A stretch of 64,000 nt of DNA from Procambarus clarkii (taxonomy: Eukaryota; Arthropoda; Malacostraca; Decapoda; Cambaridae). The notes beneath the pieces were generated by a model. The model was not told the DNA's origin, ran no database searches, and saw nothing but the letters and a program-made list of their open reading frames with translations. The stretch spans positions 18,567,499-18,631,498 of the forward strand of contig NC_091220.1 in NCBI RefSeq assembly GCF_040958095.1, read 5' to 3'. This document shows positions 2,421 through 49,427 of this stretch, one piece after another. The position numbers and the translations under genes were made by a program. Position 1 is the first letter of the stretch, and each line of letters begins with the position of its first letter.

Positions 2421-2548
2421 GCTGTGTGAGGTGGAGAGAACCGTATCCTCGCTCAAGACCGACCTGCCACCTGTTGTTGACGAACTCCGGAGAGCCGTCG
2501 ACGCCTTCCGGATGAGGCTAGAAACTACCGAGCACCTGTCCTGGCTAG
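2421..2548 (+). CDS. PDE9A: PDE9 exon a (N-terminal, probably helical region)
   Basis: Follows an acceptor at 2419-2420 (CACTGCAG) and ends at CTGGCTAG before the donor GTGAGT at 2549. It starts with one base completing a codon and ends with one base of a Gly codon, which the next exon's GG completes. The translation, [17 protein letters not shown] onward, is charged and heptad-like, fitting the N-terminal helical part of PDE9. Assignment rests on phase, splice sites and position; sequence similarity in this part is weak. Other donors are possible (see the 30-bp array). Confidence 0.65.
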
Positions 2549-5500
2549 GTGAGTGTTCCATACACCTGTCCTGGCTAAGTGAGTGTTCCCTACACCTGTC
2601 CTGGCTAGGTGAGTGTTCCCTACACCTGTCCTGGCTAGGTGAGTGTTCCCTACACCAGTCCTGGCTAGGTGAGTGTTCCATACACCTGTCCTGGCTAAGT
2701 GAGTGTTCCCTACACCTGTCCTGGCTAGGTGAGTGTTCCCTACAGCTGTCCTGGCTAGGGGAGTGTTCCCTACAGCTGTCCTGGCTAGGGGAGTGTTCCC
2801 TACAGCTGTCCTGGCTAGGGGAGTACATCCTGCCTGAGGACAGGGGCGGCCATGCTGGCAAGGGCGCCTGGCGTGATGGCTGCCGTCAGCGCCATCTCTT
2901 GAGTGACGGGCCAATTATAATGGTCCCAGCCAGACGCGTTCCGCCGAGAGTGGTCGAGTTTCTCCTCCTTTTGGCCCTTTTCATGGACCATTTTGGTTTA
3001 TTGGACGCTAAGGAAAAAAAAATATATATATATATACTAATATTTTTATGTTCATTTATATTTTGCATTTATATTATTTTTGCCGTTTTTGTTGCCATCT
3101 TTCATAGGCTTATTTGAAATATTTTGAAACAGGTTATTAGGCTTTTCAAAGTCCCTTAAGGCCAACTGCTTATCTTAAGATGCGACGCTACAATAGTTCT
3201 CTAACTCACGAGTACCTATTTACTGCTAGGAGAGGTGCGTCAGATCAAAGGAAACGTGCCCAACCGCTTCTGTCCGGCCGCGGGAATTGAATGTATGTGA
3301 ATGACAGGTGTTGTCGTATATATAGCCTTGTTTGCCTCGGGAGAGCGCGGCTGTCACCCCCACACCCCCACAGGTCGTCCACACCCCCACACCCCCACAG
3401 GTCGTCCACACCCCCACAGGCAGGTCGCCCTCACCCCCACAGGCAGATCGCCCTCACCCCCACAGGCAGATCGCCCTCACCCCCACAGGCAGATCGCCCT
3501 CACCCCCACACACCCCCACAGGCAGATCGCCCTCACCCCCACACACCCCCACAGGCAGATCGCCCTCACCCCCACAGGCAGATCGCCCTCACCCCCACAC
3601 ACCCCCACAGGCAGATCGCCCTCACCCCCACAGGCAGATCGCCCTCACCCCCACACACCCCCACAGGCAGATCGCCCTCACCCCCACAGGCAGATCGCCC
3701 TCACCCCCACACACCCCCACAGGCAGGTCGCCCTCACCCCCCCCACCCCCCACCCCCCCGTCCTCCTAAGCATTCTTAGCCAAAACCTCGAATTACCGAC
3801 CGTCCAAATGCCTCGTCCATCAACTGCCAATACCAATAATTACCATCAGAACACCTAGCCTAACCCGCCCTAGCCGTAGATATACACAAAACTATAATTC
3901 GTAACAGAATTAATCAATACGGGAGAGAATATCACATTTTAATCACGCGGCCCCGGCAGAGTTTGAGCAGTCCCCCCTGAAGAGCCGGTCGGCCGAGCGG
4001 ACAGCACGCTGGACTTGTGATCCTGTGGTACTGGGTTCGATCCCAGGCGCCGGCGAGAAACAATGGGTAGAGTTTCTTTCACCCTATGCCCCTGTTACCT
4101 AACAGTAAAATAGGTACCTGGGTGTTAGTCAGCTGTCACGGGCTACTTCCTGGGGGTGGAGGCCTGGTCGAGGACCGGGCCGCGGGGACACTAAAAGCCC
4201 CGAAATCATCTCAAGATAACCTCAAGATAACCGAGAAGACCGCCAACTCCGTCAACAAGTACATACCAACCCATCCTCTTAAAAATAAAGTCGCCTATCA
4301 CTCGTATGCGCACTATGGCCAAAAATCCAACCACTTGGCCTGGACGGTAGAGCGACGGTCTTCCGTCACGCAGGTCGGCGTTCAATCCCTGACCGTCCAC
4401 AAGTGGTTGGGGCACCATTCCTTTCCCCCCGTTCAATCCCAAATCCTTATCCTGACCCCTTCCAAGTGCTATATAGTCGTAATGGCTTGGCACTTTCTCC
4501 TCATAGTTCCCTTCCCTATGGCTAAAAATGGACGTGATTTGAAATGAAATCGGCTCACGAAAGTGACGTACTGTCCCGTTTTCTGTCTAGAGTCGTCCGG
4601 CTTACTCTGTTAGGTTAGGAGAGGAAACTTTCAATTAACGGTTTTCATGACGTTATGAACCCTTAGGAGACCTTCCTGCCCTCCTAACCTACCAAGGTAC
4701 CCTTAACCTGCTATTTTGGAAAAAAAAACAAATCCAAAATTAAATTTCCATTATTTTTCATTTTCAAATTACGTCCATTTTCGGCCATCCTGGCAAACGG
4801 CTGAATTCAAACGCAATTTGAAAGAGGGACAGGTTCAACGGGTTTAATGTCATTATCTAACTTTCGAACGATATCGACGCGTCCACGGCGCCAGTGTTGA
4901 TAATGCTTGGGACTTTGGCTTTCCCAGAACCACTCGGCAGGTCTATTATAAATGTCACAGTGAGAGCGTGTATGTGATTACTATTATCGGTGGGCGAGGC
5001 GACGAACTAATCAGCTTCCTTCTGGAGCCCTGACGATCCTATGGCGGAGGGTAGGGTGGGTGACGCCCATAAATTCAAATTCAAATGACGACAGTTGGTC
5101 AACTGCCGTTGTCTTAAACATCATACTGTATTCTCATTCCCTGAATTGATTGATCCTGTGGTGGTCTCTGGGTTTACCTAGTTAATATTCATTAATTACT
5201 GAATTAAGTTAAGTGCGCCTAGCTAACATTCATTTATTATAACCTAACTTAAGTTAACTTGAACTTATTCTACCCAAGCTTAGCATGTTATTTAATAGTG
5301 TGTGCGATTAACCTAACTTAATTCAACCTTATCGTGTCCAACATTGTTTGTTTTCTTACATGTTAAATTGTCCCATTGGAAGCTAACTTGTCGTATGTTA
5401 AGCTTCCTGGACATGCCCAAACAACTAACCAAGCACATATTAACGTAGCGTTAACAGAGCCAGTTAACCCGTACGCTGCGCCTAGACGCCCCCAGGCGTG

Positions 5501-5919
5501 CGGTGCCTACGAATGATGTGAACAACTGGGAGATTGTTGTGCTGGGACCTGGTAAATTAGACCTCAACCACGCCACCTTTGTTGTCCTCTCTCACGTTGT
5601 ACGGACACTCTCTCTCTCTTCTCTCCCAACCTATGACATGCCCCGACACCACACTGATCGAGGTCTCTGCTGCAGGGTTCTACAAGGAGGGGATTGGGGA
5701 GCCGCTGGGCGCCTTGCCGGAGACTCACCCCTATTGGAAACACGTTCAATACCGCAGGAAGGTGGACCAGGAGCTCTCTACCGTCTTCTCCAAGTTCAGG
5801 GAGATATGGTGAGTGTCGTCTGCTCTCTCTTACTCTCTCTCTCTGTCTGTCTCTGTGTGTCTCTGTCTCTCTCTGTGTGTCTCTGTCTCTCTCTGTCTCT
5901 CTCTCTCTCTGTCTCTCTC

Positions 5920-5978
<59 letters not shown>

Positions 5979-6059
5979 GTCTCTGTCTCTCTGTCTCTGT
6001 CTCTCTGTCTCTCTCTCTGTCTCTGTCTCTGTCTCTCTGTCTCTGTCTCTGTCTCTCTG

Positions 6060-6110
<51 letters not shown>

Positions 6111-6119
6111 GTCTCTCTG

Positions 6120-6204
<85 letters not shown>

Positions 6205-6209
6205 GTCTC

Positions 6210-6248
<39 letters not shown>

Positions 6249-6249
6249 G

Positions 6250-6298
<49 letters not shown>

Positions 6299-10788: not shown

Positions 10789-13700
10789 TGAGAGGCGGGG
10801 CCAAAGAGCCAGAGCTCAACCCCTACAAGCACAACTAGGCGAGTACACAGACACACAAGCTACCTGTCCCCGACAAAATACTCTGTGAGGCGCCTATATG
10901 AGTGTGAGTGAGAGAGTTGTGTGTTCCCTTACGGGGCTATTCATGCCCGTAAGTATCATCTCTTGGGTGGCTAAATCTTCATCACTCATCAATGGCTTTT
11001 TTCCCGTAGTGACGGTGTGGTGGAGGAGGACACGCGGACGCTGCTCAGACTCCCCACCTTCAACAACTGGGTCTGGGAGGAGTGGGAGATCCTTCTCTTG
11101 CTCCAGCACATGTAGGTTGACCTCTGATTACTCCTTGTTGACCTTGTCTGACGTTCACTGTGTTGACCTTGACCTTGCCTGACGTCACATGTGTTGACCG
11201 TGACCTTGCCTGATGTCACAGTGTTGACCTTGCCTGGCTGGCCTTGTCCATCTTGTCTATTTCCCCTCAGTATCTTGTATGTTGTTATCATATCTCCTCT
11301 ACTTCTTCTGTCCTCCAAGGATGTGAGGGCCAGTTCCTTCAGCCTATCCTCATAAGTTAACCATCTAAGATCTGGCACTAATCTAGTAGCAAACTTCTGC
11401 ACTTTTTCGATTTAAGTTTTATGTTTCACAAGGTATGGATTCCAAGCAGGTGCTGCACCGTATGACCTTGCCTAATTCCACTGTGTTGACCTTGCCCGCC
11501 CCAGTGTGTTGACCTTGCCCGCCCCACTGTGTTGACCTTGCCCGCCCCAGTGTGTTGACCTTGCCCGCCCCACTGTGTTGACCTTGCCCGCCCCACTGTG
11601 TTGACCTTGCCCGCCCCAGTGTGTTGACCTTGCCCGCCCCACTGTGTTGACCTTGCCCGCCCCACTGTGTTGACCTTGCCCGCCCCAGTGTGTTGACCTT
11701 GCCCGCTCCACTGTGTTGACCTTGCCCGCCCCACTGTGTTGACCTTGCCCGCCCCACTGTGTTGACCTTTCCCCTGACTATACTCCTCTGGTGACTGACC
11801 TTTCTCCTGACTATACTCCTCTAGTGACTGACCTTCCCCCTGACTATACTCCTCTAGTGACTGACCTTTCCCCTGACTATACTCCTCTGGTGACTGACCT
11901 TTCCCCTGACTATACTCCTCTGGTGACTGACCTTTCTCCTGACTATACTCCTCTAGTGACTGACCTTTCCCCTGACTATACTCCTCTGGTGACTGACCTT
12001 TCCCCTGACTATACTCCTCTGGTGACTGACCTTCCCCCTGACTATACTCCTCTGGTGACTGACCTTCCCCCTGACTATACTCCTCTGGTGACTGACCTTT
12101 CCCCTGACTATACTCCTCTGGTGACTGACCTTTCCCCTGACTATACTCCTCTGGTGACTGACCTTCCCCCTGACTATACTCCTCTGGTGACTGACCTTTC
12201 CCCTGACTATACTCCTCTAGTGACTGACCTTTCCCCTGACTATACTCCTCTGGTGACTGACCTTTCCCCTGACTATACTCCTCTGGTGACTGACCTTTCC
12301 CCTGACTATACTCCTCTGGTGACTGACCTTCCCCCTGACTATACTCCTCTGGTGACTGACCTTCCCCCTGACTATACTCCTCTAGTGACTGACCTTCCCC
12401 CTGACTATACTCCTCTGGTGACTGACCTTTCTCCTGACTATACTCCTCTGGTGACTGACCTTTCCCCTGACTATACTCCTCTGGTGACTGACCTTTCCCC
12501 TGACTATACTCCTCTGGTGACTGACCTTTCCCCTGACTATACTCCTCTGGTGACTGACCTTTCCCCCTGACTATACTCCTCTGGTGACTGACCTTTCCCC
12601 TGACTATACTCCTCTGGTGACTGACCTTTCCCCTGACTATACTCCTCTAGTGACTGACCTTTCCCCTGACTATACTCCTCTGGTGACTGACCTTCCCCCT
12701 GACTATACTCCTCTAGTGACTGACCTTCCCCCTGACTATACTCCTCTGGTGACTGACCTTTCTCCTGACTATACTCCTCTGGTGACTGACCTTTCCCCTG
12801 ACTATACTCCTCTGGTGACTGACCTTTCCCCTGACTATACTCCTCTGGTGACTGACCTTTCCCCTGACTATACTCCTCTGGTGACTGACCTTTCCCCTGA
12901 CTATACTCCTCTGGTGACTGACCTTTCCCCTGACTATACTCCTCTGGTGACTGACCTTTCCCCTGACTATACTCCTCTGGTGACTGACCTTTCCCCTGAC
13001 TATACTCCTCTGGTGACTGACCTTTCCCCTGACTATACTCCTCTAGTGACTGACCTTCCCCCTGACTATACTCCTCTAGTGACTGACCTTCCCCCTGACT
13101 ATACTCCTCTAGTGACTGACCTTTCCCCTGACTATACTCCTCTGGTGACTGACCTTTCCCCTGACTATACTCCTCTGGTGACTGACCTTTCCCCTGACTA
13201 TACTCCTCTAGTGACTGACCTTCCCCCTGACTATACTCCTCTAGTGACTGACCTTCCCCCTGACTATACTCCTCTAGTGACTGACCTTCCCCCTGACTAT
13301 ACTCCTCTAGTGACTGACCTTCCCCCTGACTATACTCCTCTGGTGACTGACCTTTCCCCCTGACTATACTCCTCTGGTGACTGACCTTTCCCTTGACTAT
13401 ACTCCTCTGGTGACTGACCTTCCCCCTGACTATACTCCTCTGGTGACTGACCTTTCCCCTGACTATACTCCTCTGGTGACTGACCTTTCCCCCTGACTAT
13501 ACTCCTCTGGTGACTGACCTTTCCCTTGACTATACTCCTCTGGTTACTGACCTTTCCCCTGACTATACTTCTCTGGTGACCGACCTTTCCCCTGACTATA
13601 CTCCTCTGGTGACTGACCTTTCCCCTGACTATACTCCTCTGGTGACTGACCTTTCCCCCTGACTATACTCCTCTGGTGACTGACCTTTCCCTTGACTATA

Positions 13701-16700
13701 CTCCTCTGGTTACTGACCTTTCCCCTGACTATACTTCTCTGGTGACCGACCTTTCCCCTGACTATACAATAGTATTAAGATGTTATTCTCCTTGATCTTC
13801 CATTGATCTTGGTCTCAATGGTTTTAATCAATCATCTTGATCTTGAACCTTTGATCTTCAAACTTATTTATAAATCAATATTTGGATATTTATTTTATAA
13901 ATCTCATCATATTATTGATTTTAAGAATCTTTATCGTTTTATTATTTACTTGTATACATCCACCTACAGATAGTACTTTTGTTTAGATGGTACTTTTTTG
14001 ATATGCGGACCATCGTACATACTCCTCGTAAGGGGAGTGAGTAAGGGGAGACATGATAACCACCTACAAAATTCTCAGGGGAATTGACAGGGTGGACAAA
14101 GACAAACTCTTCAGCACGGGTGGGACACGAACAAGGGGACACAGGTGGAAACTTAGTACCCAGATGAGCCACAGAGACGTTAGAAAGAATTTTTTCAGTG
14201 TCAGAGTAGTTAATAAATGGAATGCACTAGGAAGTGATGTGGTGGAGGCTGACTCCATACACAGTTTCAAATGTAGGTATGATAGAGCCCAGTAGGCTCA
14301 GGAATCTGTGCACCAGTTGATTGACAGTTGAGAGGCGGGACCAAAGAGCCAAAGCTCAACCCCCGCAAGCACAATTAGGTGAGTACAATTAGGTGAGTAT
14401 ATATTGATGTACTGGACACTTGGGTAGTAGAATTTGTTACTACTGTACAGTATTTACTTTATAGAGGCCAGAAAAATTAAAGCTGAAAACCAAACCAAAT
14501 ATGCCTAGGCCTAATATAGCAGATATATATATATACTATATTAGGCCTCGGTATCTCTGTACTTCTGTTTTGTTTCTTCTCCATTCTGCTTAATTTGAAT
14601 TAAAATATTTTTTGGGCTGTCTTTAATTTTTTAAAAGTTGTGAACTTTGGTCTTTTAGCTAATTTTATTGGCTCTGCAGATCACTCTTTTTATATTTATC
14701 ATTATAACTCATTATATAACAACATTAATGTTAGTTATTCATATTACAAAGTTTAAACAATGTATAATACATTGATACAGTATTAAGTGTCTCTCATATT
14801 TCTCAAATTGGTTGGCACAGCCCACAGTTTTTTACCTTGATTGATTATATTTATAAATAATATGTGAGTAATACAGTATAGAACATAACCTAACAACTGC
14901 GAAACACATAATGCAAACATGTTATTTAGGCTAAAATACATATGAATATTATACATAATGTATAATTGTAACAATTGTTGTACATTTTAGGTATAATGAC
15001 TTGGATCTGCTAACTAAATTTGGCATCGAGATTGAGGTGCTGCGGAGCTTCTTGTGTCGGGTCTACCACTGTTATAATCAAGTTCCCTTTCACAACTTCC
15101 AGCATGCCTTCTGCGTCACCCAAATGGTGAGACAGTTTGTTTTATTTACTACTATTTATCTTTGGGCTAAAAATACATTTTCTTTTCATATATAGGGTGG
15201 CCAATAAAGTACTGTAAATACTATATTTATACAGTACTACTGCATATAATAAATTATGTATTGTATACAGTTGTTTAATGGTGAGTGCAGGATACAGTTG
15301 TTAAAAGTAACAACATGGAAACTTGGTGTATAACTACAGTACTAGTGTATAACTACACATTGTGGTTTTTGTTAAAGATTTTGTCAGAAAAATTGGACGT
15401 GTCGCAAAACCCATAATCGTTTTGGATAACAAAATAAAGTTCAGTAGTATTGTACAGTATATGTGCAGTCAGGTTTTAATATGTATTGAAAATATACAGG
15501 ACACACTTAAATTAGTGTTAGCAATACTCTTTCTGCACAGTACATACATTACAAATTTTCATTAATACAATATATATACATTACAGTACATAACCTGTTC
15601 TGATGTGAAAACAGGACAAATTTCCAAATTCCAAATTTCTTTTACAATAACCAACTCCCATCTGTTTGAACTAAAAGACTGCAGTATTCAATTGTCAACT
15701 GATGTGACTCCTTAAGTGTCATATTAAGAGTTTTAATTTTTCCATCTGGCTGCTTCAAGGGTTATAAAGAGTGTCTTTTGTGAGTGTACCCAACCTGCAT
15801 CTGTCTGTTGCATTTTTGATATGCACGGGCATTCAGTGTTCACACCACACTCTAAATACAGTTACAGTAAAGTGTTTGTAATGGTTTCTACCAGCAGTGC
15901 ACCCAAGACGAAACATTCGGTGAGGAATTTTTAGCAGAAAGTATAGGTTCTTAAATAAGAGGAGAGTTGCAGCCATAACCAACTTGTATTAAATGTATTT
16001 TCGAGGCTAAAGATAAGATCTTTGTTATTCTGAAAGTGAATATGATAATGCAATGTGGCAGAGGAAGGTAGTGAGTCAGGCTAACATAAAGTGTTGAAGA
16101 TGCTGTGTTCGAGGCAAGCACTAATGGTACAAAACTAAAACATTAGTTCTAAATACATTACTCATGGCAAGGCAAAAGATTTCCATATGCAAATAAATGT
16201 TAACGAGCTGTGTTCATATTGGGAGAGGTGGCTAAGGCATTTTAAGAGTTGCCAAGGTATTAAGCATCTATGGATATGCAGGGAGGAGTTGACTGATACA
16301 GAACATACAGTGGGTACATCACTACAGCAGAAGGGATCTTCCAAGACAATAATTTATCTCTTATGTAAATGTATAATGATAAAAAGAAAGGCTAGTACTG
16401 TACTGACACAGTTGCACAAATATATGCAGTAATAAATGGGAGAATCTTGGTTATCTTGAGATGATTTCGGGGCTTTAGTGTCCCCGTGGCCCGGTCCTCG
16501 ACCAGGCCTCCACCCCCAGGAAGTAGCCCGTGACAGCTGACTAACACCCAGGTACCTATTTTACTGCTAGGTAACAGGGGCATAGGGTGAAAGAAACTCT
16601 GCCCATTGTTTCTTGCCGGCGCCCGGGATCGAACCCTGGACCACAGGATCACAAGCTCAGCGTGCTGTCCGCTTGGCCGACCGGCTCCCTGACTGCACTT

Positions 16701-19700
16701 GCTGGATACAAGCTGAATAGAGAGAAAGAGGGTCACTATACTGTTATGTGCCAATGTAGCTAGCAGTTAAAAAATAAATTTACCAGTGATTGTAAAGTGT
16801 GTGGAAGTCTGAAGACTTGTTTTGAGACAAATTTGAAGATCATTTTGGCTCGGACATGACGGAACACTTACAGAGTGTTGGCCTGCCACACAATAACAGT
16901 GACACTATTTCTTGATAACAACCACTTGCACCATCAGCAGGATGAGATAATAATGGGGGTAATACCTATAGTTATGTACTCGGCACTAATGTAATATCCT
17001 TCATCCAATTTATGGATCGTGATATAATTTTAAAAGATAACAAACCACTACAGAATTGAAAAAAAGTCCTTTAGACATCTCATTGAACAGGAGGGTTACT
17101 ATAAAGAAAGTCTTCAACTTAAAGACAGCCATATACGAGGTGTAGGCTAAACAGAGGCCAAGGTATGCAGTCAACCTTAAAGAATGGTTGTAGCAAATGT
17201 TGCCACTTACAAGAGACTCTCTCTCTCTCTCTGAAAAGATATTCAGGATATTTACAAGGTTGTGAGGCCAAATAACTTAGTGGTAAGATAATGAAATTTC
17301 ACAAATTGTTAGTGAATTATTGATATTCAATATTTTTGAGGAGAGAGAATGAGAGAGAGAGAGAGAGAGAATGAGAATATGAATATTCGCAAGGTGGGTA
17401 TTGCCACAGATCAGAGACCTTAACCATATATGTGATAAGTAGATTATTATTTTCTTTAGGAAATCTTTATTCACCCTTTGTATCTAATATATAAATGTAG
17501 TTTTAATATTGGTTGAAATTCTTGCTTGATACACTCCAGATGTATGGCATGATCTGCAAGTGCGACTTACAAAGACGATTAGGAGATTTGGACGTCCTAA
17601 TCCTGTTGACATCATGTATATGTCATGACTTGGACCATCCTGGCTTCAACAATATCTACCAGGTGTGTAAGTGGGCTTAGAAAGACACTTGACATGCAGT
17701 CTGACTTATCTTTAAACTTCGGAATGCAGCTATCATCAAAAGTTGTCACAAACTGTGTGGACAAAATCTACACCTTGAGTGGTTTCATGAGTTGTAAGAG
17801 GAAGGCGGGTGGTGAGATGGTAACAGAACACCATGTGAGAGTGCTAACACTTCTTAGAACGGAGCAGACTAAGACATTCAACTTGGATAGTTTCTACGTT
17901 CATTTCTTGACTTGTCAGTTTACAAAATGTAATGTTTGTGTTGAAGAACTTGATGTTTATTCAGTTGAAAAAACAGTGATTGAGTACTGTATATAGGCCT
18001 ACAATACAATATGTACACCTACATTGTGCATACGGTAAGTGTTCTTGGCACAACTCAATTGAAGTATCTTGCAATCCACTCCTTTGCAGCAATTTGATCT
18101 GGGAATGGCATCCAGACAGGGATTCAAACACTGGCAGTAGACAAAATCCCATTTGATGATAATTGCATAGTTAGCAATTACAACAATAGCAAGGTTTCTG
18201 TGGGGAGCCCCATTGGCTCCCTCAAGCCGATGGGGCACATACTGATTAAGTGCCACATTACTTAGGGTCATCAGTCACAGAGTTCTTATATGCCTAGTGG
18301 GGACCAGAGCCAGAACCACCAGGAGCCCCCCTCACAGAGGTGCAGGGAGCAATGGCTCATGAACACTTTACATGTAAAGTTTATCTTGCCATTGCCCAGG
18401 GAAGCCCCCAGAAAGGTAGGCGAATGAAAACAGAGTACTGCCTGGTTGGAAAATGCGATCTACGCCCTCAAAACAACAAAAGAACTCCCCCACAAAGAAA
18501 AACTAACAAAACTTAGTCCAATTAACCCCCTGCTCATTAGTGCCACCCTCCCCCAAGCTGGGTCACCACCTCCCAGTTCTTGAAGGATAAAAGCTGCCGA
18601 CTGGAGGGAAAAGGAAAGGGGAGTGCCAGAGAGCCTCTGGGGCTCGCCCAGAAACTGGCGTTTCATTACATTCAGCGCTGGGATTTTTCTTGGGTTTTTG
18701 GTTAACTACTGTACTGTACATCCATGTACAGTACAGTAGATGTGTTATAAATCAGACTTACACAATTGGTATAAAGAGCAGGCAGTAATAATGAAAATTA
18801 GCAAATGACTATGACTGCAGTAGCCATGGAGTGACACAAATGATGATGACTGCATTTTGAGGTTTAATGAATGTGTAATATTGTATGTTCTTCAGTAAAG
18901 GCAATGCTCATTCCTTGACTGTTACACAATATTTCTCAATTCTTTTAATTAAGTTTTCTGTACAAAATAAGTGTCTTCAAGTTTAGTTATGCTTTTAACA
19001 ACTTGACATATACCTGTATCTCTCATTGACAACTTGCACATGCTTGCAGATCAACGCCAAGACAGAGTTGGCACTCAGGTACAACGACATCTCACCGTTG
19101 GAAAACCACCATTGTTCTGTTGCGTTTACTGTCTTGGAGAGGAACGAGTGCAATATATTTAGGTAAATAATTTATAAATTTGTCATTTTCCTTGTTTGGA
19201 TATAAAAATCTCTAGTATTTTCCTGTTTAGAAATGGATATATCACTTGAGAAAAAGGAAGCCTCTTAAGTATTTTCAAGGTTACCTTAGCCCAGGGCGAG
19301 ACTTTTTTTGCATGATCACCCATCCACTTACTAGCTAGACAAAATGGTGCTTAACTTGACTGTACTGCTGAGACAACATTTTGTTGTGGTATAGCAGAAT
19401 CAATTTCTAAATACTGTATAGTGTTTTTGCTGTTGAAAGACCAATATTGAACTGTCTGACAATTCAGGACAAAGTCAGAGGTTCTGTACCATCGACTCTA
19501 ACTACAGTACAGTATTGAATCTGGTTATCAGACATATCTATCAATATACTCTATACACAGAGTATATTTCTGGGTATATTCCATATTCCATTTATTGCTG
19601 GGTATATTCCATATTGCATAGAGTATATTCCAAATGCTTTGCTGGTGGAATAAAAGAAAATGCATAGTTATATTAATACTAAAGAAAATACAATAGTTAC

Positions 19701-22700
19701 ATTACTGAATGTCGCCTCCACTAAATATCCATTAAAGTAAAAAAATCTTTCTAGCCAAATTTATTCTGCAATAAATCTTACAAAAATATGCAATATATAA
19801 ATTGATAAGCAGATCATATTATGGAGAAAACATGGCACTGATAAATATATAACAAATTCCATTATTAAACAAGATTAATTCATAAATGTAATGAAATTTC
19901 CCTTTTCTGGGAGTGTCCACCCTCAGTAGCTCTTCAAGCTTAAGTGCTGTTCTTGTCAAGCCTTAGGGAGATACACTAAGCCCCAGAGCCCCATCCTTGC
20001 CAACAAAGACCACAACTAGAATCTGGCTCTCAGAGAAATCACATTATCACATTAACGTGATTTGATTGTGTATTGAAGTCAGAGTTAGAACCTACTGGTC
20101 GATGGAGCCCGAGTGCAAGGGGAAATTGTATGAAACCCTGATTAGGCTTCAGTGGAAGTCTCGGGATCCTCGTGGGGGCAGTAGCACTCCAGGTTGCAAT
20201 TCTTTTTACCATGTCATGGTACAGTTGACTAGAGCGTGTCTGGAAACACCCAGTGCATAGGTTCGAACACCCATCAAAGCTCTTGTGGATTTGTTCACTA
20301 ATTGGATCATTGTAACCAACCTAACAATGATGTACCTGACCACCACCAGGTGGCAGCCCAGGTCATCTGGGATCCCAGACTGCCAGCCCCCATTTCCGAG
20401 CCCTGCAAACAAAACCTCTCCATTCCACACAGGAGAATGGAACATGGTGGGGGACAGGGAGCTACTGAAGGTCCCAACAGAAAGAATGATTCATTACATT
20501 CCACATTTGATATCTATGAAGGCCCCCTCGGAAGCTCTCAAAGCTAATTTGCAATGGTGCTTCAGCTGAGACAGTCTGCATTTCTGAAAAGGAACAAATC
20601 CATAAACAAAACTGCAGCCAGGGCTTACCCATAGGAGAAGACTGCAGAAGAGGAGGGCCCAGGGTAGAGGGGCACCTGTGATATACCAAACACCTAAACA
20701 AAACAAGTGCAGCTGGGCTGAGGGATACGCCAAGCAAAGCTAAAGGTCGGTTCCTATGTAGACCTCAGAACAAGCCCAAAACTCAAACAGCAGCCAAGCA
20801 GCCAGGCAACACAGAGCATAGGAATGAGGTCAGACCAATGGCTGGCCAAAATTACAGGGCACAGAGGGATGCTAGGCAAGAGTCCCGAGTGCAGGGAACC
20901 TCTAAACCCAGGGGCCTATAGTCCCAGGAATCAGTCACCAGATCTGAATACCCAGAGGAATTCCAGGCCTCTAGGTCAGTAGGCAAAGCAATGTCAACCA
21001 CAATACAGCATCCAGCATCTAAATGTGAAGTCAAACCAACTGAACCCGAGCTCAGAACTTGGGGGCCAGAGCAAAGTCCCCTATACCAAGGCACGCAACC
21101 CAGAAAATGCCAGACTTGTGAGCAATGGGCACCATGCCCAGGAAGAACTGGATACCCTGGCTTGAAGTGTTGTATCATGTGGCCCAAAAGTGTCTGGAAA
21201 CATGGCCCAAGAAAGACTGGGTAAACGGTACAGGCAAGCTTACCGGAATCTCTGGTATAACCTTAGCTGCCACCCGGTGGCAGTCGGGTGTGTCACTATT
21301 AGGATGTTTACACTTTACACTTTAGCAGCAAGCATTTACCCTGTTACCAGAGGGTGCTTAATTTTCTTCAGAATTGCTTTGCTTTGTTGCATTTTACTTT
21401 CTGATGGGACTTTTTCTCAGTTTTGGGTTGAGCTTTGATCTCCAGGCTGCCCTCGCCTAGTAGCGTGAGCCAAATTCTGGTCTTAGCTGCCGGTAAGCAA
21501 GGTTGGGTCTTGGAGGCTTAGAGCATCTCCCTACGACTCGGCTGAACTAGCACGAGACTCACGAAGCTACTGAGGGCAATAAAAGTACAGTACTTCCCAA
21601 TAAAAGTAGCAAAACCACTTTGCCAATGGTTCTTTAATGAACTTAACACTTTTTACCAACAGTGGAGAACCCAGAAACTTGCTTAATAAATAAAAACATG
21701 TTATATTGTATATACCCAAAAAATTTAAAATAATTACTGTGACTGTGTATTCATGTGTGTACAAAGAATAACCAGAGTTTAGGTAGTGGGAATTAGAGCA
21801 CAACTTGCCTTAGAGAATATACATAGATGAAGAACAAAAAGGCTTAAATATGAATAATGTGTTTATATAAAGTTTACATTTTTGTGTCAGACTTTTTAAA
21901 TTTTGTATGCATATGATTATGCACGTGATGCCCTCCACACATCCACTCATGTGCTGCCCTCCACACATCCACTCATGTGCTGCCCTCCACACATCCACTC
22001 ATGTGCTGCCCTCCACACATCCACTCATGTGCTGCCCTCCACACATCCACTCATGTGCTGCCCTCCACACATCCACTCATGTGCTGCCCTCCACACATCC
22101 ACTCATGTGCTGCCCTCCACACATCCACTCATGTGCTGCCCTCCACACATCCACTCATGTGCTGCCCTCCACACATCCACTTATGTGATGCCCTCCACAC
22201 ATCCACTTATGTGCTGCCCTCCACACATCCACTTATGTGCTGCCCTCCACACATCCACTTATGTGCTGCCCTCCACACATCCACTTATGTGCTGCCCTCC
22301 ACACATCCACTAATGTGCTGCCCTCCACACATCCACTAATGTGCTGCCCTCCACACATCCACTTATGTGCTGCCCTCCACACATCCACTTATGTGCTGCC
22401 CTCCACACATCCACTTATGTGCTGCCCTCCACACATCCACTAATGTGCTGCCCTCCACACATCCACTAATGTGCTGCCCTCCACACATCCACTTATGTGC
22501 TGCCCTCCACACATCCACTTATGTGCTGCCCTCCACACATCCACTAATGTGATGCCCTCCACACATCCACTCATGTGCTGCCCTCCACACATCCACTTAT
22601 GTGATGCCCTCCACACATCCACTCATGTGCTGCCCTCCACACATCCACTCATGTGCTGCCCTCCACACATCCACTCATGTGCTGCCCTCCACACATCCAC

Positions 22701-25700
22701 TTATGTGCTGCCCTCCACACACCCACTCATGTGCTGCCCTCCACACATCCACTTATGTGCTGCCCTCCACACATCCACTCATGTGCTGCCCTCCACACAT
22801 CCACTTATGTGCTGCCCTCCACACATCCACTTATGTGCTGCCCTCCACACATCCACTCATGTGCTGCCCTCCACACATCCACTCATGTGCTGCCCTCCAC
22901 ACATCCACTCATGTGCTGCCCTCCACACATCCACTCATGTGCTGCCCTCCACACATCCACTCATGTGCTGCCCTCCACACATCCACTCATGTGCTGCCCT
23001 CCAAGTATTGAGATTTCAAGAGTTGACAGCACTAGTGAAACAATACATGTGAGTAATGATAGAAATATATGGTGTGTAATCTGCATACAACACTTTGACT
23101 TGAATGCAAGAAATAGGTTTTAACACATTTGTTTTGCATGTACAGTGTAATATACTGTATTGCATTATTTTAATTTGGTTGATTGGTTCTAGTGGTAAGA
23201 TTGGCTTGTGTATGTATTACAGGAATGTGTCGGCAGAAGACTACAAGAAGATAAGGGAGGGAATGATTCGGTGCATCCTAGCGACGGACATGGCACGCCA
23301 CAATGAGATTCTTTCCGACTTCCGTGAGATAATACCAGAGTTCGACTTTGAGAACAGAGCTCATATCAATCTTGTATGTCCAATTTTTGTTCTTTGTGAG
23401 GAAGTGATAAGGAACTTGTGCACAAGCATATACAGCAATGTGTTTTCCAGGGATTCTGGGATGTCCTCCTCAGTAGCTCCCTGAGCTGAGCACTGGTCCA
23501 GCTAAGTCTTAAGGGAATGCACAAGGCCATAGAGGCCCATTCTTGTTTACCAAGACCCAGGACCAGAATCGAGTTCACTCTTGAGTCAAGGTGAACTTAA
23601 AAATCTGAGATCAACCCAAAAATAAGAAAAAGACAACAGAAAGCATAAATGGAACCAAACAAGCATCTTCTTGAAGAAAATTGGATACTCAAAAGTAATG
23701 AACCAAATGATCGTTGCTGTGGGGTCAACACAATTCCCGTGATGCCATAAAGTAGTAACCCAGGTCTGCTGGGATTCCAACAGCCTGTCCCCCTCACTCA
23801 CTTGCAAAGCCATTGCATAAGGGCATAGAACCTGAGTTAAGTTCATGCTGAAGCAAAGTGATGTTGGATATCTCTGGAGCATTAGTCCTGTCAGGTCCAT
23901 TGCTTTATTATTTCCTTTCTCCTTCATGATTTTATTTACTATTATCCACATTGCATACGTCCTAGCTTTAGATGTGACTGTGTGCCAGGAACCCCAAGAG
24001 AAGTTTGGGTTCCTCCTCTACAAACTGACTCTTCATCAATTGCCTCATTTCTGAGTTGCACACCATGTGTTCCTCGCTGCAGGGTCTCTTATGGGGAGTG
24101 TAGTCATCTGTGATTGTGTTGCGATCACACATGGACCTGCTCCTTGTGCACATTTTAGTTTTTATAGTGGGCTCGAAGCCTACCTGCTGGCTTCTGCTGG
24201 CCCCAGGTTATTGAGCCCTTGAAGCTCACCTATGGTGGAGTGGTAAGATCAGTAGCTTCTGTCCCTGGCCATATTTCACCTATCTCTTTTGTGGCGTGTT
24301 TAAAGGTCAGCTGTATTTTAATTAGGTCTGAGGACTTGCTATCCTGGGATATTTGATTGTCTTTATTTCCTATTTATTGCTGGGCTTACTTTACCTCTTC
24401 ACTTGGATGCATTTTCAGGTGCTGGGTTTGTGGCCCGGCTCTCACACAGCAGGTTACCGTTGTCTCATCTCCAACTGTGTTTGGCATTCAGTGAGGCCTA
24501 CCTTGGATCATTCTCCAGAATCTGTGCCATGTGTTCTTTCAGGATCCATCTCTGTATTATGTATGGGTTGCCACCTGTTACAGCTAGTCTTATTATTCAG
24601 TTTTTTTGCACTTCTGCCCCATGAGGGCTTGGCGCATGCCCTTGTCTTCTGCCAACTTTTTTGCATGGTTCAGCTTTAGCCACATTTTTTGTCCTGCTCC
24701 TCTGTCAAGGCACTTTTATGAGTTAGCTTGGGGAGGCTGGTGGCAAGGGCTGCCACCTAGCAGTGGTTAGTTGCATCGGTGTCTGGAAGTTTACCGCCTC
24801 AGCAATGATAAGTTTACCTCGTTAGCACTGCTTAGCTCATTTTCTTCAAGCAGTTGCTTGTTTTGTTGCACTTATGCTTTCTGGGGCTTGTTTTGTATTG
24901 GTATTGGGCTGATCTTTGATCCCCAAGCTCCTCTCACCTCAAAGTGCCAGATTCTGGCCCTGGCTCCTAATAGGCAAGGATTGGTCTCCGAGGCCTGATG
25001 CATCACCCTAATGCTTGGCTGGACCAGCACTTGTCATGGGAGACTATTGAGGACCCACCAGAATAGGGCGTTTCATTACATTGTGCTTGATATTTTATTA
25101 CTAGTAAGGACAACAGTTGTTTCCATGCTTAAAGTGCTCAAAATAAACAAAAAGAATAAATCTTTTATTTGCAAAGGAATACATAAAAGAATATTACAGA
25201 GTACATTTTTTCAAAGCCCTTCTATATTCATTGCATTTTTGCAATTCTTAAAACTAACAAGATGGTCATATTATACAGTATATGTCAATATATAATGTTT
25301 TACATTGTAAATATTAGACAATACCAAATTGTATATGAAACATGTACCTTGCATCTCTTGATATAATGTATTGGACAACTTCCAACATTTCCAGAATTAT
25401 TGATTTTGACCAATTTTATATTTTGTATTTTTTCCATAAATTTTGAGTAAACTTTATCCTACTTAAAATGAGAATTCCAATTTGTCTCTCTTTAGACAAT
25501 CAAATTGTAAACAAACACTACAAGAAAACATTACAAAATAAAAAAAAATAAAAAGATTTCATAAATGCTTGTGAAAATAACTGTCCTTTTTTTATACATA
25601 TAGAGTACGGAATAAAACAAAGACTAGGATGTTACTTTTGTAGAATAAAGATGTATTTCAATATGTTAGTGACAGTTTATCCTCTCATTTTCAGCTTCAC

Positions 25701-28700
25701 ATGATTTTGATCAAAGTTGCAGACATTAGCAATGAAGCTCGACCTCTGGACATTGCCGAGCCCTGGCTGGAGTGTCTGATGCAGGTATGTTGTCGGGTAG
25801 TCTGGACAGTGAGACCAGGGACCAGATTCACCAAGCACTTACGCAAGCACTTACGAACGTGTACATCTTTCCTCAATCTTTGACGGCTTTAGTTACATTT
25901 ATTAAACAGTTTACAAGCATGAAAACTTCCCATTCAACTATTGTTATTGTTATAAGCAGCCTCCTGGTGCTTTGAAGCTCATTAACTGTTTAATAATTGA
26001 AAACAAAGCCGCCAAAGATTGAGAAAAGATGTACAGGTTCGTAAGTGCTTGCGTAAGTGCTTTCGTGAATCTGGCCCCAGGTCTAACTTAACTGAAATCT
26101 GGGCCCTACGTGTTGATTGTGGGTACTAACACAGGTGACAGTAAGCGTAGGTGGCCAGGAAGGCCAACTGGTGCTTAGCAAGAGCCCATCTCTGGCACTC
26201 ACCTTTGATAAAAAGTGTTTGGAGGGGCTTTAAATTGTTATATATTTACTGTATCTGAATTTACCTGAGGGCCATGATCCCTAGTGGCCTCAATGAACAC
26301 AGGGAGGCCTGAGGATTTTTATTCCAATAGAATTTTGAACTACCTTGAGGTGTTTCTGGGGGCTTAGCGTCCCAGCGGCCCGGTCATGGACCTGGCTGAA
26401 AACTAGAGTACAGTCTTGACAAGTAGGTGATTCCATGTGCTTATTACCTTATAGGTATTAAGTGGAGGGGATTAAGTGTTCCAGTGAAACTTACGCACCA
26501 GGTACCACCGTGCAGGGACCACGTGAAATATTGCTTGCAGCACTATGCGTGCAAGTTGCTGTGCAAGAATGTACCACATAACATATTTACTTTCAAAACC
26601 CATTGTGCCTTATACTGCCTTATACATAGGACATTGCAGATCTTACTTTATGGACATCTGAATATGATAGCCTAGGAAAAGCATCCTTTGAAAACTTTTG
26701 CAACTAGGTTAAATACAAATTTTATTTTAGTTAAGTTTATGTAATAAAGTTCAATTCTTTTATAGGAGTTTTTCAACCAGAGTGACCTGGAAAAGCTGGA
26801 GGGCCTGCCAGTGTCTCCTTTCATGGACCGGGAGAAGGTGACGAAGCCCTCGTCCCAGTGCTCCTTTATTGGCTTTGTTCTCTTGCCACTTTTTGAAGCA
26901 CTCGGAAAAGTTCTGCCTGAGCTCGATGTAAGACAATTAACTTTACTTAAGTAGTTTTAGTAAGAAAAATCACTGCTATGTAAATATCATGTACTTCTTC
27001 CAATAAATGTTTGTTGAACTCTGATTAACTTTAGGAAAAGTCTTTGAACAGTACACTTAATTCTGTTGATATTGGATGTACACACACTTCACCAATAGCT
27101 TATAAGGAGATAAAGTCCTCCATGAAACGGCCAGAGAAGAATCTATGAGTTGGTATCACACCAAACCTGTCTCTTGAAGCCCACACAAAAAAGATCAAAT
27201 CAGCAGTGTATGAGAGTGAGGCTGTCTAATATCAAAACTGCCTTTAGAAATTTGTGTAAGGAATCATTTATAATAATAATAATAATGATAATAATAATAT
27301 TTTATTTAGGAAAAGTACATACATAGATGCAGTTACATTCTGATTGATTTATCGATAGAGCTAGTACATACAATACCTAAAGCCACTAGTATGCATAGCA
27401 TTTCGGGCAATTTAGAACCTTATACACAACATATGTCAGACCAATGCTAGAATATGCGGCTCCAGCATGAAATCCATACCTTGTCGAGCATAAAACTAAG
27501 TTGAAGAAGGTTCAAAGGTATGCCGAAAGACTAATTCCAGAACTACGAGGTATGAGTTATAAGAAAAAGGCTGCGTGAATTCCACCTCGTATTGCTAGAG
27601 GATAGAAGAATAAGGGGAGACATGATTACCACATACAAAATTCTCAGGTGAATTGACAGGGTTAGATAAATGGAGATAATTTAACATGTGTACTCACACA
27701 AGGGGGGACAAGTAAAAACTGAGTACACAAATGAGCCACAGATACATTAGAAAGAAATTTTTCAGTGTCAGAGTAGTAATAAATAGAAGTGGCGTGGTGG
27801 AGGCAGATTCCAGTTTCAAATGTAGATATGATAGGCTCGGAAACCTGTACACCAGTTGATTGACAGTTGAGAGGTGGGACCACAGAGCCAGAGCTGAAGC
27901 ACAACTAGGTGAGTGTATACACACACTCGCTCTTCACCAACAGGTTATGTGTAGGAATTTCTATGGCTTTATTACCCCACGAGTGAAAAAGCATGCACTT
28001 TTGTCCAATAGTGTGGCTTGTTGATCTTGATGCACAAACCCAATGTACCTTCTCGTATGCCTGTCAGTCGGGCCAGTCTGTCTCCATCCATCCACCCAAC
28101 CCGTCTTGCCCTCCACCTGCTAACCCCGCCTGCCTGCCGGCAGTCAGCCACCTACCCACCCACCCTGCCAGCCATCCCACCTGCCCACTCTGCCCATCTA
28201 CCTGTCCACCAGTCAGCCACCAATCCATCTACCCCACCTGCCTGCCAGTCTAATCCATCTACCCACTAGCCAACCAGTCTACCTGCCCAACCCCCTCTCC
28301 TGCCTGCCTTCCTGCTAACCAGTTATCCATCCATCCAGCCAGCCCACCCACTTACCAGCCAGTTATCCATCCAGCCAGCCCACCCACTTACCAGCCAGCC
28401 CACCCACTAACCAGCCAGTTATCCATCCAGCCAGCCCACCCACTTACCAGCCAGCCCACCCACTTACCAGCCAGCCCACCCACTTACCAGCCAGTTAACC
28501 AGCCAGTCAGCCCACCCACTTACCAGCCAGTTATCCATCCAGCCAGCCCACCCACTTACCAGCCAGTTATCCATCCAGTCAGCCCACCCACTTACCAGCC
28601 AGTTATCCATCCAGTCAGCCCACCCACTTACCAGCCAGTTATCCATCCAGTCAGCCCACCCACTTACCAGCCAGTTAACCATCCAGTCAGCCCACCCACT

Positions 28701-31700
28701 TACCAGCCAGTTATCCATCCAGTCAGCCCACCCACTTACCAGCCAGTTAACCAGCCATCCAGCCCACCCACTTACCAGCCAGTTAACCAGCCATCCAGCC
28801 CACCCACTTACCAGCCAGTTAACCAGGTAGCCAGCCCACCCACTTACCAGCCAGCCATCCAGCCAGCCCACCCACTTACCAGCCAGTTAACCAGGCAGCC
28901 AGCCCACCCAATTGCCAGCCATCCAGCCAGCCTACCCACCATCCAACCTGTTGCTCTCCTAAATATGACTAAACAGTTACCGACATTTTAAAACCTCTGG
29001 ATTTGGCTGAGCCCTGGATTTAATGACCTGGGTACAGCCCCATATAGGTCCTCCCACATAAATTCACCCATGCTCCTTGCACTGGCACCATTACCACAGC
29101 CACCACACAAATTGGCATTATCATACGAGTCATAAATGAGTATTTATGACTCGTATGGTTGCTTCAGTAAGATTGGGAGATGACACGGGTAGTGGTGGTG
29201 GTAATCCTGGCAACGGCAATGACCTGTGAGGCTACAGCATGTGTGGCGCTCACCCTGTACAGGACACGCTCGCTGTATTGTCTTCATCCATGTCTGTATC
29301 ACTTTTATCGGATACTTGTGTTAGGTCTTTATCGTGCCTTGATTCCTCGATACAGTATCGCTATCCTTTCCTTCTTCAAACAATACTGTCCCAATTTCCC
29401 CTTCAGACAGCGATCTTTCAACACAGGGGATTGGGAGCTGGAGGCACATGCATCAGCCATTGTTGCTCAATCAGAGCTGAGCCTACCTGCGGCCCAAGGG
29501 GCATGCTGGAAATTTTTTCTATATGACTGCCGCTCACTGGAAACCTCAGGCCTCCATCTCATAACCAACCCACTGCGTGCGCATTTTGAATCTTACTATA
29601 TCCTAACATCGCTATGAAATCGAGCGGCACACTGACATACTGTGTTTTGTCAAGTGGTGCAGTAAAGTGGTTAATAAAGTACACTATTTTAACCCCTGGG
29701 CTGCTCAACTGTTAATAGCTGACAAACCCCATGGTGTGCAAGAAAACAAAAATCACCCCAGAACTACATCAACTCTCGTATCAGGAACAGTTGAGGGCCA
29801 CAGGACTAACCACACTACAAACCAGACATGACAGGGCTGATCTCACCAAATCCTTTAAAATAATGAACAAGCCGAAACGTATTAATCCAGACCAGTTCTT
29901 TAAAAGGTCAAATGTAACACATACAAGAGCTAGGAGCTTCAAGCTCCATGAGCCATAATGTAGGACAGGAAATGTTTTTTCACTTGTATGATTATAAACC
30001 CATGGAACAATGGGAAGCCTTTGACAGTCTGGCGGCTTTCTGTCCCCATTGAGGCCACTAGAGATTTTAGCCCCTGGGTAAAGTATATGCACATGCAAGC
30101 ACTCAATTCACCAATAGATCATGTGCTGACGCAGATGTACACTCACATTTCATTAACAGCTTATGTAACACATCTTTAGCTTCCGACTAGACATGCCTAT
30201 ATATATAATCACTTCTCTCTTTATGCCATAGACTGTCTCATGCTAATTATAGTCCATCGTTCTTCCACCATCCCATTTTTCTCTCTCCACATTCACTTCT
30301 CTGATAATTCTTACAACCTTGTGTATTTTTATCATTAAATATAGTTTGTGTTTTCAGGAATAAAAATTATGTGGGATATTGCCTTTTTTCAGAGTCATGT
30401 TGAATATGAGGATACTAAGTTTGATATTTGGAGAGGCATTATCTTTTCCATAAATATAAGCTGATAAATTTCTTCTTTTATATCTTAAATTGACTGAGGC
30501 ATATAAAGTAACTTCAATTCACATGTGTTGCAATAAGAACTTCACTAATGAATTTTAATGAAAGCCTATATCTGTGTAAGGATAAATTTGCTAGTTTAAT
30601 TTTTCAGGAATTAATAATCCAGCCAGTGAAGTATGCCCTGGACCACTACCGAACACTCAATGAAGCATCCAAGAAAACTTCACAAGAGCTAGCGATGGTT
30701 CAGTCACCAGAGGAAGAACAACAGCCTCAGAGTCCAAATAGCCCGTTGTCTCAAGATAATACAAAAAAAATAGTTCACAAGACAGAAAGCTTTCACAGTC
30801 TGGGGAGTCGAGCATCGTCACGAGCCTCATTCTATCGCTCCAATACTGTTGACTGTGGAGATGTTGAGATAGATGATGCCAACTTGACAGAGACTGAAGT
30901 TGACGTGAGTGAAAGAACATCTAGATTCAAAATTGCGACCGATATTCATAAATCGCCTTCTAGAAGAAATAGTTCTGAACGCCGCAACAGTGTAGGCGGG
31001 AGGTCAAGTTGTGAGAGAACCATATCTCCCAGAGCACTGGAAGATCGACTCTTGCCTCATGCAGAGGCCAGAATTGAACCTGAAGATAATGAATCACTTC
31101 CCGAGAAATACGAAAAAGAATCTTCTATATTTGCACGTCTAAAAATTTTCTCTGAACGTCTCTCAAGTGATAGGGATAAGAATCTCAATGGTTCGGCTCC
31201 TTTTGGAAAGGGAAGCACGAGGCATAAACAAGGTGGTCTGCAGGGTGTGCTCAAACGAACTAGAAGTAGGTCCGAGCCTGCAAAAGACCGACCCCACAGA
31301 ACGTTTCATATAACTCGACCTAGAATTAGTTTCGGGATAAACACCCAGAAGCCACAAAGTGAAGAAAACATGTTGAGTTGCCATGAGAAAGAGATTTCAA
31401 AAGAAAAAAATGTAGAGTATGTTTCTGATGAAATTCCTTCAACTGGTGAAATCAAAACTTCTACCTCCTTCGAACTTTTAGAACAAAAAAAAAAGCTGTG
31501 CGTGTTAAAAGATGCTCAACTGTCGCCAACACTTTCAGAAAAGTGTGCATTATCCTCGAACTCAATTCTTAAGAATAAAGGGTTCAGCCTTTCTTTAGAC
31601 GTACTTCCTCGAAAAAATGGTCGCTCTAGGAGGCCCAATGGTGATGAAATTCAGACTTCTGAAAACACCCCAGGTGGTTCAGAAGATGACCTTCTAGTGG

Positions 31701-47975: not shown

Positions 47976-49427
47976 ACAAGTCACTGGTAACAGGTAAACT
48001 GCCAAAAATTTGGAAGACAGCCAATGTAGTCCCAATATACAAGAAGGGTGGTAGGCAGGAGGCACTGAACTACAGGCCAGTGTCCTTAACTTGCATTCCA
48101 TGCAAGATGATGGAAAAGATTGTGCGAAAAAAGCTAGTGGAACATCTGGAGCAAAAGAACTTTGTAACACAACATCAACATGGGTTCAGAGATGGCAAAT
48201 CATGCCTAACAGGATTGAGTTCTATGACCAGGCAACAAAAATCAGGCAAGAGAGAGAGGGCTGGGCAGACTGCATATTTCTGGACTGCCAGAATGCTTTT
48301 GACACAGTACCACATAAGAGACTAGTGCACAAACTGGAGATGCAGGCAGGAGTGAAAGGGAAGGTACTCCACTGGATAATAGAGCACCTAAGCAACAGGA
48401 CACAGCGAGTCACCGTGAGAGGTGAGGTCTCGGAGTGGCGGGGAGTCACCAGTGGAGTCCCACAGGGATCAGTCCTTGGACCTATACTGTTTCTGATATA
48501 CGTAAATGATCTTCCAGAAGGAATTGACTCGTTCCTCGCGATGTTTGCTGATGACGCGAAAATTATGAGGAGGATCAGGACAGAGGAGGATAGTATGAGG
48601 CTACAAGATGACCTAGACAAACTGAAGGAATGGTCCAACAAATGGCTACTAAAGTTCAACCCAAGTAAATGTAAGGTAATGAAACTAGGAGGAGGAACTA
48701 GGAGGCCAGTCACTGGATACCGAATGGGAGATGAAGTCCTTCACGAAACGGACAGAGAGAAAGATCTGGGAGTTGATATCACGCCAAACCTGTCTCCTGG
48801 AGCCCACATCAAAAGAATAACATCAGCGGCCTATGCGAGGCTGGCTAACATCAGAACTGCTTTCAGAAACCTGTGTAAGGAATCCTTCAGAACCTTGTAT
48901 ACCACATATGTAAGGCCAATTCTGGAGTATGCAGCCTCAGCATGGAGTCCGTACCTAGTCAAGCACTAGACGAAGCTGGAAAAAGTTCAGAGGTATGCCA
49001 CTAGGTTAGTCCCAGAACTAAGAGGCATGAGTTATGAGGACAGACTACGTGAACTGCACCTCACGTCGCTGGAAGACAGAAGAGCTAGGGAAGACATGAT
49101 CACCACATACAAAATTCTCAGGGGAATTGACAGGGTGGACAAGGATGGATTATTTAACACGGGTGGCACACGCACAAGGGGACACAGGTGGAAGCTGAGT
49201 ACCCAAATGAGCCACAGAGACATTAGAAAGAACTTTTTTAGTGTCAGAGTAGTTAGTAAATGGAATACACTAGGAAGTGATGTGGTGGAGGCTGACTCCA
49301 TACACAGTTTCAAATGTAGATATGACAGAGCCCAATAGGCTCAGGAATCTGTACATCAGTTGACTGACGGTTGAGTGGCGGGACCAAAGAGCCAGAGCTC
49401 AACCCCCGCAAACACAACTAGGTAAGT
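47976..49427 (+). mobile_element. LINE family A, 5'-truncated, reverse transcriptase and 3' end
   Basis: Non-LTR reverse transcriptase. It starts inside the domain: LPKIWKTANVVPIYKKGGRQ, LNYRPVSLT, then after a one-base frameshift near 48205 DCIFLDCQNAFDTVPHKRLV, TSGVPQGSVLGPILFLIYVN and the catalytic FADDAKI. The C-terminal part has a TAG at 48967 and ends [18 protein letters not shown]. The 3' UTR reads GGGACCAAAGAGCCAGAGCT and ends AACTAGGTAAGTAC. The endonuclease ORF is absent and two breaks make it inactive. ACTATA / ACTATGG at the ends may be a short target duplication from the minisatellite. Resembles CR1/L2-type LINEs; clade not certain. Confidence 0.92.

Follow-up and report, generated by a model that had tools for sequence, protein, structure and literature searches.

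The 3′ end of an internal coding exon of the phosphodiesterase gene PDE9 of the crayfish Procambarus clarkii, together with its splice donor, stands about ten times in tandem in the 64,000-nucleotide stretch of DNA analysed here (the window). The array, the gene, the reading frame and the donor sequences – as well as the use of the first donor by the annotated protein – are observed in sequence and annotation, and we consider it likely that the array is an ordinary minisatellite which has grown across the exon–intron border, leaving extra in-frame donors behind while the first one does the work. With identical donors spaced at 30 nt in an otherwise conserved gene, it is a clean natural experiment on donor choice by the spliceosome, and it shows a minisatellite creating in-frame length options with the gene unbroken.

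The PDE9 gene and its internal exon a

The identity of the gene is certain. Ten phase-consistent exons (a to j; Table 1) give a single open frame, which matches the Pfam family PDEase_I (PF00233) at E=3.5e-90; among solved structures, PDE9A chains lead – with human PDE9A best at E=3.8e-119 and the next other phosphodiesterase at 2.9e-49 – and homologous proteins agree. The model is also identical (829/829) to the protein annotated at NCBI as 'high affinity cGMP-specific 3',5'-cyclic phosphodiesterase 9A isoform X2 [Procambarus clarkii]', referred to below as P0121, from residue 99 of that protein onward. The peptide of exon a is present in P0121, which places this exon in a PDE9 transcript at the level of annotation. 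The first two peptides of P0121 map farther upstream (at distances of about 26 and 16 kb, in a stretch given partly as N), so that this exon is internal. The match to solved catalytic domains begins at model residue 94, with the insertion point of the array lying about 50 residues before it. The source genome was searched as one 4.03-Gb assembly of 2308 contigs, in which the N-terminal exons of PDE9 match only the contig of the window itself (C71, with the window at 18567499–18631498), while 7 of 17 protein matches fall on other contigs, at 37–48% identity.

Table 1. PDE9 exons and features of the donor-bearing array (positions in the window)
Feature	Position	Strand	Evidence
Exon a, internal coding, ends ...EHLSWL/G (phase 1)	2421..2548	+	phase-consistent model; identity to P0121; conserved junction
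30-bp minisatellite, 9.7 copies, leading 16 bases exonic	2533..2824	+	TRF; unit alignment and borders
Donor 1 GTGAGT, used by annotated protein, U1 duplex −12.5 kcal/mol	2549..2554	+	computed; protein match
Six extra GT donors (2579, 2609, 2639, 2669, 2699, 2729)	2579..2734	+	computed U1 pairing; frame check
Units 8–10, GT to GG, donorless	2742..2824	+	unit alignment
Exon b, ends ...FREI	5676..5808	+	gene model; P0121 match
Exon c, catalytic region begins	11010..11111	+	gene model; solved-structure match
Exon d	14991..15126	+	gene model
Exon e (HDLDHPG)	17540..17662	+	gene model
Exon f	19050..19162	+	gene model
Exon g	23223..23373	+	gene model
Exon h	25695..25784	+	gene model
Exon i	26766..26927	+	gene model
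Exon j, last coding exon	30608..31959	+	gene model

Structure of the array

Starting within the final 16 coding bases of exon a, the array is described by TRF as having a period of 30 with 95% matches and 0% indels (score 507). In the unit alignment, units 1–9 each show 0 to 2 departures from the 30-position consensus, so the array is far beyond chance. The variants are few. Units 8–10 have G for C at unit position 4 and G for T at position 19; units 2 and 6 have A for G at position 17, and units 1 and 5 have A for C at position 29, unit 5 also having A for T at position 6. Further differences affect the first position of unit 1 and the end of unit 10, which is broken. Unit 2 equals unit 6 exactly and unit 1 differs from unit 5 at one position, a sharing of variants in steps of four units which hints at the duplication of a block some four units long. 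It is the shared variants that carry this hint, because the self-identity of the array at a 120-base shift (143/150) is not above that at a 30-base shift (229/240).

The units can also pair with each other as RNA: the array folds at −123.6 kcal/mol (z −2.21), as well as which 5 of 200 shuffled sequences fold, a modest signal from which we draw nothing. Rfam (at the gathering threshold) and a tRNA scan gave no matches across the whole window.

Splice donors and reading frame

The first-pass annotation of this DNA had described a PDE9 exon end and its donor amplified about ten times, as a ten-codon unit free of stops whose donors all share one phase, with GT kept in seven units and lost in three; all of this is borne out, as is, at the level of annotation, the membership of the exon at 2421 in a PDE9 transcript. 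Its further statement that each unit repeats both the coding end and the donor holds for units 1, 3, 4, 5 and 7, where the full CTGGCTAG is followed by GTGAGT. It does not extend to units 2 and 6, where GTGAGT follows CTGGCTAA (the G at −1 being lost to an A), or to units 8–10, which read CTAGGGGAGT and have GG in place of GT. Complete TAG/GTGAGT sites thus stand in 5/10 units and GT in 7/10 (units 1–7), as donors usable by sequence only.

Pairing with the 5′ end of U1 was computed as a duplex energy, which is a measure of pairing and not a splicing score. By this measure, the donors of units 3, 4, 5 and 7 are identical to donor 1, at −12.5 kcal/mol, and those of units 2 and 6 are weaker (−7.6 kcal/mol); the remaining eight PDE9 donors within the window lie between −1.9 and −11.1 kcal/mol. 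Across the window, about 7 of 3658 GT sites (0.0019) score no worse than donor 1, and five of these lie inside the array.

The frame of the exon stays open across all ten units and onward to 3117, the two other frames having a stop in every unit and in units 1–7, respectively. With a 30-bp unit, splicing at each successive donor would lengthen the protein by ten residues and keep the frame. Alone, however, this property is weak evidence, since a period divisible by three arises in one case out of three and a stop-free unit, given the composition, with a probability of 0.75.

The junction in annotated proteins

P0121 splices donor 1 (2548) to 5676. It represents 4 member sequences clustered at 90% identity and was itself the only one compared; a longer PDE9 isoform could be hidden among the members of this cluster, and the annotated junction may derive from homology rather than from reads. 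All ten aligned crustacean proteins – nine named decapods and P0002 – pass the junction without insertion, with T133–K144 of P0121 invariant. Outside this comparison stand P0129 (Penaeus chinensis), which has no match there, and P0004 (krill) and P0128 (mantis shrimp), whose alignments do not cross the junction.

A broader set of 182 homologs was drawn from overlapping lists (the best 120 of 1375 matches, 9 of 9, and the best 120 of 1011), with counts that reflect annotation rather than RNA content. The peptide encoded by the repeat occurs in 0/182 of these best matches of the longer lists, and in 0/9 proteins from the search aimed at the array region. The junction is aligned across in 170 of the homologs, is not in 11, and has no match in 1. 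Inserts aligned within model residues 36–50 are found in 35/170. An intact HLSWLG is followed by 3–4 inserted residues in 31 fish proteins and by 12 in P0133, while P0130 is poorly aligned; three proteins beyond these 35 align at the junction without this motif. The remaining two of the 35, from Timema (P0163, 38 aa) and Tribolium (P0169, 28 aa), carry unrelated inserts at the junction, which look like retained introns in gene predictions and suggest that an insect intron may lie at the same place as the crayfish junction.

The N-terminal region varies elsewhere. Isoform X2 of Panulirus (P0001) lacks the stretch ELFRSA...ATPCNG of P0121, the N-termini of the two differing, perhaps, by exon skipping.

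Minisatellite background and a possible dispersed core

Minisatellites are abundant around the gene: 69 non-overlapping arrays (period 10–100, at least 3 copies) make up 14.9% of 176.5 kb, that is, of the window and 150 kb upstream minus 37.5 kb of N. If exon–intron borders were unprotected, and assuming about 24 of them in the gene, 3.6 would be expected to be struck by a minisatellite; with local coverage of about 15%, no special cause has to be invoked for one that overlaps the end of a PDE9 exon. Decapods at large have been reported to hold very many satellite DNA families (PMC10454600).

Chance placement is maybe not the whole story, because AGGTRAG occurs in the units of 2/69 arrays on the strand of the gene and of 1/69 on the other, as against 0.27 per strand expected from shuffling. 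The second such array on the gene's strand lies at −87580 to −87244, without the full AGGTGAGT. Moreover, a 421-base query comprising the array and most of exon a gave 47 genomic matches other than itself, at 65–73% identity, where a control consisting of one shuffled 300-base array found 2 overlapping matches at one locus. Paralogs or copies of the exon were considered as the source of these matches and rejected: the seven best loci from the 47 non-self matches, three of which belong to one array, hold minisatellites with periods of 24, 28, 29, 32 and 33. The five arrays behind these best matches resemble parts of GTTCCCTACACCTGTCCTGG with local scores of 17, 21, 21, 25 and 29. Background TRF rows (64 of them) reach at most 12, and comparisons with shuffled units (500) reach at most 21, so that only L004 (25) and L008 (29) exceed both. 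Weaker likeness to the core of the PDE9 array is seen in L002, L003 and L007; all five lie on other contigs of the same genome. Chosen as the best matches out of 4 Gb, these arrays are suggestive only; the genome may contain a dispersed minisatellite core, and the PDE9 exon end, by matching such a core, may have been prone to amplification.

Origin of the array and use of its donors

On the explanation we favour, the minisatellite would have arisen where exon a ends (its 3′ side), through slippage or unequal exchange, in a region of the genome crowded with such repeats, and some ten copies of the last 16 coding and first 14 intron bases would have been laid down into the intron. Of these, the first (2548/2549) would have remained the working donor, and those downstream would be spare ones – equal to it in sequence in units 3, 4, 5 and 7, weakened in units 2 and 6 and absent from units 8–10 – with minor use or none. 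Tolerance of longer products may be why the array persists: slippage to a later donor is probably tolerated, since each unit adds ten stop-free codons some 50 residues ahead of the catalytic match.

Later donors may well be used, because four of them equal donor 1 in U1 pairing and because, in other genes, SRSF1 has been reported to shift the choice to intron-proximal donors, and hnRNP A1 to intron-distal ones (PMC5585400); later-donor use may therefore depend on tissue. In our judgement, the chances of low-level use of some later donor are about even, and it is improbable that length variation arising from later donors matters.

Several donors might instead be in regular service, with PDE9 produced in lengths 10 residues apart and, possibly, with a copy number that differs between individuals. 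Five identical strong donors spaced at multiples of 30 nt in one open frame would suit this well, as would the precedent of IFI6, two of whose downstream repeat units are employed as donors (PMC4526556), and the in-frame variation already annotated at decapod PDE9 N-termini (P0001). Against it stand the absence of the repeat peptide from the homologs and from the aimed search, the strong conservation of the junction residues and the presence of donor positions −1 and +2 among the changes within the array; we regard it as unlikely. The length-variable PDE9 proposed in the first-pass annotation is something that the array permits, but P0121 joins donor 1 and none of the 182 homologs carries the added peptide. 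Still more doubtful is the fuller version, in which five identical donors yield a ladder of isoforms, the length of the array varies between animals or lineages, and the whole was perhaps seeded by a dispersed core matching the HLSWL codons. If such a ladder were true, the linker before the catalytic domain would be a heritable, tunable length trait.

That selection retains the extra donors, whether to recruit U1 or to buffer the loss of donor 1 by mutation, strikes us as very improbable. GT is indeed kept in 7/10 units, and buffering, also raised in the first-pass annotation, is compatible with the array; yet 2 of the 5 substitutions inferred within it (counted without the broken end of unit 10 and the first position of unit 1) strike donor positions, namely −1 and +2. 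This compares with 1.5 expected in the 9-nt donor motif (P 0.47; P 0.08 for positions −1, +1 and +2; not significant) and shows no sign of selection keeping the extra donors, which, moreover, could not restore the usual protein upon loss of donor 1, since later donors add residues. It is just as hard to credit that the array stems from faulty assembly, or is wrongly assigned to PDE9: although known from one assembly, it is short (294 bp), has distinct unit variants and lies on a 31-Mb contig between clean flanking exons. Intron gain by tandem duplication, as reported elsewhere (PMC4974935), was also considered and set aside; the introns between units would measure about 30 nt, without a pyrimidine tract by eye.

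Parallels in human genes

Minisatellites bearing splice donors are already described in human genes. Turri, Cuin and Porter reportedly found in 1995 that a minisatellite in IFI6 (6-16, G1P3) provides multiple splice donors, and Lievers et al. are said to have revealed alternative splicing at a VNTR in CBS by RT-PCR in 2001. The PDE9 array likewise straddles an exon–donor border and has several units with a usable donor sequence. As in IFI6, the donor is repeated by the minisatellite itself, but with a unit of 30 bp where that of IFI6 has 12 bp, or four codons. Donor use in IFI6 has been reported in mRNA, with three mRNA species (PMC4526556), whereas the later donors of PDE9 are known from their sequence.

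The CBS repeat, c.1444_1467+7(16_21), consists of 31-bp units present 16–21 times with substitutions between units (PMC2630376); it sits at the border of exon 13 and intron 13 (PMC1395315, PMC5188458), and more repeats are reported to go with lower activity (PMC5188458). Its unit is nearly equal in size to that of PDE9 and straddles the border, with 24 exon and 7 intron bases by its name. However, a step of 31 bp shifts the frame, by arithmetic, and the copy number varies among people, whereas the 30 bp of PDE9 keep the frame. Internal tandem repeats with units averaging 30 bp, some of them at exon–intron borders, have also been reported to modify genes in human segmental duplications (PMC2812944); these belong to recent human paralogs, while the PDE9 N-terminal exons match the contig of the window only. 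Among titles and the beginnings of abstracts, with PDE9 named only in combination with crayfish, no published account of the PDE9 array was found.

Neighbouring repeats and donors

A tandem repeat at 5818–6295 begins about 10 nt past the donor of exon b and another, at 11138–11232, begins 26 nt past the end of exon c, so that all of the first three PDE9 donors in the window are crowded by repeats. The donor of exon c is itself weak (CAT/GTAGGT, −5.2 kcal/mol; 11102–11120), and an alternative GT 4 nt downstream would, by reading, introduce a stop. TRF also finds very long intronic minisatellites at 11763–13767 (33 bp × 60.6) and 21925–23003 (26 bp × 41.5). Finally, donor-like tails at 14371–14399 (ACAATTAGGTGAGT twice) and 49414–49427 (ACAACTAGGTAAGT) come directly after two similar reading frames, at 14041–14292 and 48970–49335, that we read as retroelement-like; there seems to be a mobile element here that carries a sequence resembling a splice donor.
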